Source: Gammaproteobacteria bacterium (lineage in GTDB: Bacteria > Pseudomonadota > Gammaproteobacteria > SZUA-229). Taken from it: DNA of 64,000 bases. The position numbers were made by a program, and so were the translations under genes. Numbering within the stretch: position 1 is the stretch's first letter; each line of letters begins with the position of its first letter. Below are positions 3,365 to 15,967 of this stretch, one piece after another. The stretch is from positions 1 through 64,000 of the forward strand of contig JASBSR010000036.1 of assembly GCA_030148865.1 (NCBI GenBank). The letters are read 5' to 3'. Under the pieces are notes generated by a model that saw nothing but the letters and a program-made list of their open reading frames with translations, was not told the DNA's origin and ran no database searches.

Positions 3365-4390
<1,026 letters not shown>

Positions 4391-7689: not shown

Positions 7690-7797
7690 TGAAACTGGCA
7701 GGCACGAGTGGATTACTCCAGGCATCCATGCCTTCCGCCCCCTGCGGGGGTCAGCCTTCGGCTGTTCAAAATCGCTCCCAGCGATTTTGTCGAACCA
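7690..7797 (-). repeat. Partial tRNA-Val 3' copy interrupted by a multi-hairpin palindromic element (copy A)
   Basis: 7692-7713 and 7790-7797 match the tRNA-Val 3' end/T-arm; 7714-7789 is an inserted run of hairpins (aaaatcgct/agcgatttt, cagcc/ggctg, cccc/gggg, ggcat/atgcc). Confidence 0.8.
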
Positions 7798-7807
7798 TCT
7801 ATTTATT

Positions 7808-7871
7808 GTCGGTGGTTCAAATCCACTCGACCGGTGAAACTGGTAGGCACGAGTGGATTCGAACCACCGAC
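7808..7871. repeat. 22-bp inverted repeat including the tRNA-Val T-arm
   Basis: 7808-7829 gtcggtggttcaaatccactcg versus 7850-7871 cgagtggattcgaaccaccgac, 21/22 complementary. Confidence 0.9.
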
Positions 7872-7917
7872 CTCTTCCATGTCAAGGAAGCGCTCTAACC
7901 AACTGAGCTACGCGCCT
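7841..7917 (-). tRNA. tRNA-Val (anticodon GAC), CCA encoded
   Basis: Reverse complement AGGCGCGTAGCTCAGTTGGTTAGAGCGCTTCCTTGACATGGAAGAGGTCGGTGGTTCGAATCCACTCGTGCCTACCA. Confidence 0.95.
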
Positions 7918-8139
7918 GTATTATTTCTTCATTCTAAACTACGCTCGGATTCGCTGTCACGACACCGACCCCTTCCATGTCAAGCCTTGTCCATACAAGC
8001 GGGCTCTAACCCACTGAGCTACGCGCCTGTATTATTTCTTCATTCTAAACTACGCTCGGATTCGCTGTCACGACACCGACCTCTTCCATGTCAAGCCTTG
8101 TCCACAAAGCCGAGCTAACCCACTGGGCTTCGCTGAGGC
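7918..8139 (-). repeat. Two tandem ~111-bp units containing degenerate tRNA-Val 5' regions
   Basis: Near-identical units gtattatttcttcattctaaactacgctcggattcgctgtcacgacaccgacc..cttccatgtcaagccttgtcca.. ending in tRNA-Val-like cactgagctacgcgcct; 5' ends at 7917, 8028 and ~8137. Confidence 0.9.
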
Positions 8140-15570: not shown

Positions 15571-15700
15571 TCACAGCACACTGCCGTCAATTGCAAAGCC
15601 AACGCAAGTCACGTAACCTTGCGCCCCGACTGGCGTTGGCGGTATAAAAAATATTTTTTAGCTTTCCGCTGCCAGCTGATGGCCGCCGGCTATGCTTTCC

Positions 15701-15820
15701 TCGGAGGTGTCCGAGTGGTTGACTAAATTCGCCGGGAGCGAATTTGAACATCAGCGTTTTTTGCTGATGGCCCGAAGGGCGGAGGCGCAGGACGCGCCGA
15801 GTCACGAGCACGCCGTAGTG
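15701..15820 (+). repeat. Partial tRNA-Ser 5' copy interrupted by a multi-hairpin palindromic element (copy B)
   Basis: 15703-15722 matches the tRNA-Ser 5' part, element 15723-15804, then gagcacgcc resumes tRNA-Ser-like sequence; serial hairpins aaattcgc/gcgaattt, catcagc/gctgatg, gccc/gggc, ggcgc/gcgcc, gagcac/gtgctc. Confidence 0.8.
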
Positions 15821-15877
15821 CTCCGCTGCTGAACAGCCCGATTGAGTTCAAACAGCAGAATAAAGTTTAAAAGTTCT

Positions 15878-15967
15878 GGAGAGGTGTCCGAGTGGTTGAA
15901 GGAGCACGCCTGGAAAGTGTGTATACGGTCAAACGTATCGAGGGTTCGAATCCCTCTCTCTCCGCCA
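15878..15967 (+). tRNA. tRNA-Ser (anticodon GGA), CCA encoded
   Basis: ggagaggtgtccgagtggttgaaggagcacgcctggaaagtgtgtatacggtcaaacgtatcgagggttcgaatccctctctctccgcca. Confidence 0.96.

Follow-up and report, generated by a model that had tools for sequence, protein, structure and literature searches.

The 81-nt array of four hairpins that splits a partial copy of tRNA-Ser(GGA) ahead of the intact gene (copy B in the window, i.e. the whole 64,000-nt stretch that was analysed) is best read, at a probability of roughly 60%, as a 5'-leader form of the tRNA-linked repeats (TLRs) of E. coli: a mobile core that would be co-transcribed with the tRNA, released, and act as a weak, growth-rate-coupled ligand of CsrA. 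Judged by sequence comparison, the element itself is mobile and integrates 3' of GA without target duplication, and together with the tyrT repeats and the rrn T1-T2 sRNAs it forms one family with the TLRs. What is new is the direct evidence of mobility, along with the 5'-leader D-loop form that recurs in Kangiella. The preliminary description of the element proved largely right; it had missed the family (TLRs of E. coli, RrA/B/F).

The split tRNA-Ser(GGA) locus

The features of the two loci that hold copies A and B are compiled in Table 1. Read directly, GGAGGTGTCCGAGTGGTTGA at 15703-15722 corresponds to nucleotides 1-22 of tRNA-Ser(GGA) with a 2-nt gap, in agreement with the earlier claim of a match to the 5' region of the intact gene. 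An insert of about 82 bp, a resumption of tRNA-like sequence with its own extra hairpin and a distance of about 175 bp to the functional tRNA had likewise been claimed, and were all borne out: the insert measures 81 nt, the hairpin GAGCAC GCCGTA GTGCTC lies at 15806-15823 on the 3' side of copy B, and 175 bp separate the start of the fragment from that of the intact tRNA downstream. Model R1, which was built from nine copies of the source genome, matches 15724-15804 with 71.1 bits (E 8.6e-12 for the genome), and folding of the copy B region recovers all hairpins (-59.7 kcal/mol, z = -2.5). A stringent promoter scan found nothing here; the promoter-like site in Table 1 was called by a looser pattern combined with conservation in relatives. 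A tRNA intron was ruled out by the intact tRNA copy that lies beside the split one in the cases read.

Table 1. Features of the tRNA-Val(GAC) and tRNA-Ser(GGA) loci in the window.
Feature	Position	Strand	Basis or remark
tRNA-Val 3'-end copy (ATCCACTCGTGCCTGCCA), 3' of copy A, one mismatch to gene	7696..7713	-	
Copy A, 3' (classical) type, adjoining tRNA-Val(GAC)	7714..7789	-	R1 70.3 bits; fold z = -3.9
GGTTCGA, T-loop target copy, 5' of copy A	7790..7796	-	
Inverted copy of tRNA-Val T-arm and acceptor region	7808..7829	-	Pairs with tRNA-Val 3'-end copy
Intact tRNA-Val(GAC)	7841..7917	-	
Promoter-like TTGCAA-17-TAACCT	15591..15619	+	Predicted; direct reading, layout recurs in relatives
GC-rich discriminator TGCGCCCC of promoter-like site	15620-15627	+	Stable-RNA type
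tRNA-Ser(GGA) 5' fragment, reaching D-loop GGTTGA	15703..15722	+	Sequence reading, locus comparison
Mobile four-hairpin element, copy B, 81 nt	15723..15803	+	R1 match; boundaries via empty-site comparison
H1 of copy B, loop CGGGA with GGA	15724..15746	+	
H2 of copy B, variable sequence	15749..15769	+	Covarying stem
H3 of copy B, GCCC GAA GGGC	15770..15780	+	
H4 of copy B, GGCGC AGGAC GCGCC	15784..15798	+	GGA in loop
Fifth hairpin: remnant of tRNA anticodon-arm 5' strand (ACGAGCACGC) and its inverted copy	15804..15824	+	
Spacer between satellite and tRNA, 53 nt	15825..15877	+	
Intact tRNA-Ser(GGA)	15878..15967	+	

Comparison of the Ser locus across relatives (draft genomes, labelled G, in which same-locus copies are related by descent) had been proposed with the preliminary description, and it yielded empty alleles: about twelve readable Ser(GGA) loci hold the satellite, about as many are without it and a few show remnants; since about half of the relatives manage without it, the satellite is dispensable. 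G008 holds two satellite units in tandem, and G019 a second element inside the satellite. The congeners G004 (empty) and G023 (occupied) align closely over 60 promoter-proximal bases, and the match stops exactly at the tRNA start in the former and at the satellite start in the latter; relatives thus do offer the empty-site junction whose absence had been named as an argument against insertion. It follows from this alignment that the satellite fragment is the old 5' end of the gene, the intact gene lying 179 bp further downstream: the unit, made up of element, short hairpin, spacer and a fresh duplicate of the tRNA 5' end, is situated between nucleotides 22 and 23 of the former gene, so that the tRNA stays intact while its old 5' end remains upstream with the element. 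As far as these alignments tell, the Ser gene is split by the element unit and an intact copy is rebuilt downstream; the unit may either have arrived whole or have arisen by duplication followed by insertion of the element. A concerted match between satellite fragment and own tRNA was seen to a slight extent only (18.8 of 20 bases, compared with 17.5).

The distance between promoter-like site and tRNA is 42-98 bp where the locus is clearly empty and 221-321 bp where it is occupied, which places the satellite in the leader, and it is this promoter position that points to co-transcription of satellite and tRNA. The same design recurs in Kangiella, with three identical 167-bp units ahead of tRNA-Ser(GGA), and two other genomes carry one unit ahead of tRNA-Ser(GCU). 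In one Kangiella stretch (L110), weak matches to the sRNA family STnc370 (34-42 bits; gathering threshold 54) run antisense to the elements at 3612-3681 and 3814-3884.

Ends, target, structure and distribution of the element

The element is non-coding, about 70-85 bp long and of the form C...TA, starting with C(T)AAA and finishing with (A/G)TA. The dinucleotide to its left is GA in 102 of the 115 aligned copies, tandem copies having TA there; this set was gathered with a TTCGA-containing pattern, by which TCGA is over-represented, and unbiased sets agree on GA. The earlier view that the target is a sequence rather than a position in the tRNA therefore stands, its motif GGTTGA/GGTTCGA does not: both are only instances of "GA|", others being GCCGGA|ATCC, which occurs within palindromic repeats, and CCGA|GTGG. 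Source-genome repeats of the palindromic form ATTCCGGCGAATGCCGGAATCCAG carry elements at the first of these sites (L043, L047, L052). At the second, a 77-bp element lies within the tRNA-Ser satellite fragment of G019, reading TGTCCGA[C...TA]GTGGTTGA; the site is uninterrupted in four other genomes and shows no TSD, and the insertion was thus exact and without target duplication. An exact empty site is thereby available for the element itself (G019 satellite fragment) as well as for the composite unit (G004/G023). In the source genome, one element lies inside H1 of another, and tandem arrays are joined TA|C. In front of TTCGA|element, 88 copies have the G of a sense T-loop and 5 have A, though TTCGAA is a palindrome; this orientation bias is overstated, because orthologous copies are not independent events.

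The minus-strand copy A lies within a duplicate of the T-arm next to tRNA-Val. Past the 5' end of tRNA-Val on this strand, at 7940-8130 of the window, two more decayed direct repeats of tRNA-Val sequence are found (the plus strand reads TTCCATGTCAAGCCTTGTCCA...), so that tRNA-Val seems to have been part-duplicated several times. Elsewhere in the source genome (G000:C35:58461-58597; L058, L061), two head-to-head elements with one common H1 are followed by a tRNA-Phe 3'-end copy, and opposite-strand elements occur at tRNA-Phe in relatives (L081, L088, L094).

A lack of conservation of the hairpins had been named as a further argument against the element; the hairpins covary in all three sets. 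Among the nine genome copies, 14 pairs were changed on both sides compared with 7.7 in shuffles (0/500); among the 115 copies, whose alignment was fitted to the model and leans towards structure, 23 of the 25 pairs were so changed (0/500). In seven copies at the tRNA-Ser(GGA) locus of different genera the count was 15 pairs against 5.3 in shuffles (0/500), and these compensatory changes in same-locus satellites indicate that the helices are kept in situ.

R1 detects about 32 copies in the source genome (E<0.01), 3-75 copies in each of the 37 same-family genomes tested (37/37) and copies in 10 of 23 genomes from other families of the class. In a sample of the phylum, 58 of 299 genomes match, members of another class included; in one family of another class (f57) the element is frequent. 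A pattern scan of GTDB for elements preceded by TTCGA only gave 76 stretches, the titles including Alteromonas, Serratia, Buttiauxella, Enterobacter, Kangiella, Colwellia and many gammaproteobacterial MAGs. Phage or plasmid carriage was also considered: 3 records of a phage collection and 15 of a plasmid collection match with 80-90% identity to the consensus, but these are mostly enterobacterial and several are chromosome-sized, and they give no sign of phage or plasmid spread. Of the 32 elements of the source genome, 11 have one of the 34 tRNAs less than 200 bp away, as do 8 of the 28 clusters (P about 2e-12 for clusters; 1.4e-5 if an assumed 13% of intergenic DNA is taken as background).

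Kinship with TLRs and the CsrA-binding sRNAs of E. coli

In E. coli K-12, where the comparison covered loci chosen around stable RNA genes, R1/R2 match rrnA, rrnB and rrnD between T1 and T2 (73/79.7 bits), and the four other rrn ends give no R1/R2 match. Copy B and the RrB core are identical in 56 of 73 aligned bases, and compared with rrnG, rrnB has an additional 167 bp that run from the 3' end of 5S to where the element stops. Weak matches (18-27 bits) were obtained at the TLRs of tRNA operons, i.e. the tyrT (RtT), argVYZQ, lysT and lysV copies; on reading, the tyrT, arg and lys copies are of like layout. At gathering threshold, Rfam gives no match on copies A or B. RF00391 (RtT RNA) includes the tyrT copies of E. 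coli (133-138 bits) as well as element loci of Serratia, Enterobacter and Buttiauxella; the loci holding copies A and B lie outside its reach, with no match even at E<=1. Mitochondrial GC clusters and double-hairpin elements are likewise tiny, mobile, palindromic and non-coding; with sequence and hosts unrelated, they offer an analogy only.

The TLRs of E. coli, 22 copies at 10 loci (PMC8144298), were first described at tyrT (Egan and Landy 1978; Rudd 1999, as cited in PMC8144298) and were still without known function in the 2021 paper, in whose description mobility plays no part (PMC8144298). Like them, copy B is a hairpin array that adjoins a stable RNA gene and is accompanied by a partial duplicate of it: it is located in a tRNA operon and its hairpin core is homologous, the likeness being strong for the rrn copies and weak for those of tRNA operons. 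Copy A has the TLR layout, including the 18-19 bp of identity to the 3' end of the upstream gene (with one mismatch). TLRs, however, are found on the 3' side of the gene and terminate with its 3' end, whereas copy B lies 5' of it in the leader, splits the D-loop and carries a copy of the 5' end; copy B is therefore filed as a TLR variant and not as a classical TLR.

RrA, RrB and RrF are TLR-derived sRNAs of rrnA, rrnB and rrnD that bind CsrA and Hfq; the binding of RrB to CsrA in vitro requires its GGA motifs, deletion of rrA/B/F has modest effects only, and the 19 tRNA-operon TLRs of E. coli score <0.01 as CsrA ligands (PMC8144298). With these sRNAs copy B has in common the four-hairpin core with GGA in the loops of two stem-loops (H1, H4); in E. 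coli, they are transcribed with the stable RNA operon. They differ in being linked to 5S rRNA on its 3' side, between 5S rRNA and T2, where copy B is not located, and in that CsrA/Hfq binding was shown for them while copy B is known from its sequence; their conservation has been reported for Enterobacteriales only (PMC8144298).

GGA is present in the H4 loop of 102 of the 115 copies, compared with 20 for H2 and 8 for H3; the corresponding 109 for H1 is biased by the search pattern. The GGA loops had been judged CsrA-like before the link to RrB was found, which may count as a prediction of sorts. By analogy with RrB, the following course of events is proposed: the unit, sitting between tRNA promoter and tRNA, would be transcribed together with the latter at a rate that follows growth; 5' processing of the tRNA would free the satellite as a short structured RNA; and the GGA loops of H1 and H4 would bind a CsrA dimer, as those of the E. 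coli homologue do in vitro, making the leader a weak CsrA ligand coupled to growth rate. In the 44-contig source assembly, neither csrA nor alaS gave a match; alaS is essential and lies beside csrA in E. coli, so that the conserved alaS-csrA locus seems to be unassembled. Since csrA is also missing from several drafts, the presence of CsrA is uninformative as a test. Elements are found in the csrA-serV-argV cluster, where the argV/Y/Z/Q TLRs of E. coli lie just downstream of csrA (L219), and in G016 (C195) elements adjoin csrA and tRNA-Ser.

Alternative readings and significance

Insertion of the IS200/IS605 type, as in REP/RAYT systems, is marked by the lack of target duplication, a fixed short left sequence and hairpin ends. 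The lack of a TSD and the fixed left dinucleotide of the element are reminiscent of it, and the whole family might accordingly be purely selfish DNA, its hairpins and GGA loops being read as single-stranded DNA by an HUH/Y1-like transposase supplied in trans, and the copies at tRNA loci being kept for no reason other than the selective neutrality of duplicated tRNA parts. Many copies indeed lie far from stable RNA genes, in arrays or nested, and these dispersed copies are probably plain selfish repeats; they too have often kept the GGA loops, which could thus be a mark for the transposition enzyme instead of CsrA, and an insertion mechanism could also explain both the orientation bias at TTCGA and the retention of GGA in H4. 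Copy number is weakly correlated with the count of PF01797 (Spearman 0.32, P 0.013). However, no linked Y1 transposase was seen, and a PF01797 match is absent from 8 of 47 element-bearing genomes (including G002, which is 100% complete, G005 and G011; some are incomplete), by which a Y1/RAYT transposase was rejected as obligatory partner. The compensatory changes at one and the same locus, the sense orientation in tRNAs and the recurrence of the tRNA-Ser leader form in unrelated lineages rather suggest a role as RNA, and a purely selfish nature of the family as a whole is considered rather unlikely.

Still less probable is a CsrA-independent role in which the array steers processing by RNase P/E or the transcription of the tRNA. 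It would fit the retention of the array downstream of the promoter and ahead of the tRNA, or else after the tRNA and before the terminator, and the proposal by Stenum et al. that the repeat of the 3' end gives RrB a site for RNase E (PMC8144298), but the leader form is devoid of a tRNA 3' end and about half of the relatives do without the satellite. Local tandem duplication of tRNAs with spacers converging on hairpins, i.e. without any mobility, can practically be dismissed: unit turnover by unequal exchange is visible in G008 and Kangiella, yet the core is also present in rrn operons, within palindromic repeats and nested in another copy of its own kind, and the exact empty site in G019 contradicts this explanation.

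Beyond the leader-type TLR at the Ser locus, a wider reading is put forward tentatively, with the odds somewhat against it: a very old family of mobile hairpins, found in Gammaproteobacteria and beyond, would have inserted into stable RNA genes, each time leaving the host gene intact, and would repeatedly have given rise to growth-rate-coupled RNAs that bind CsrA, on the 3' side of 5S rRNA in the enterobacterial case and within the tRNA-Ser leader in the source genome and Kangiella. The rrn T1-T2 sRNAs are carried on many expression plasmids by way of the rrnB terminator. The repeats of tyrT, these sRNAs and the dispersed copies form a single mobile family whose ends, target and empty sites are defined; the origin of TLRs, their location at stable RNA genes and a routine coupling of stable RNA transcription to CsrA become testable, and the obscure TLR-type sequences belong to a widespread mobile family.
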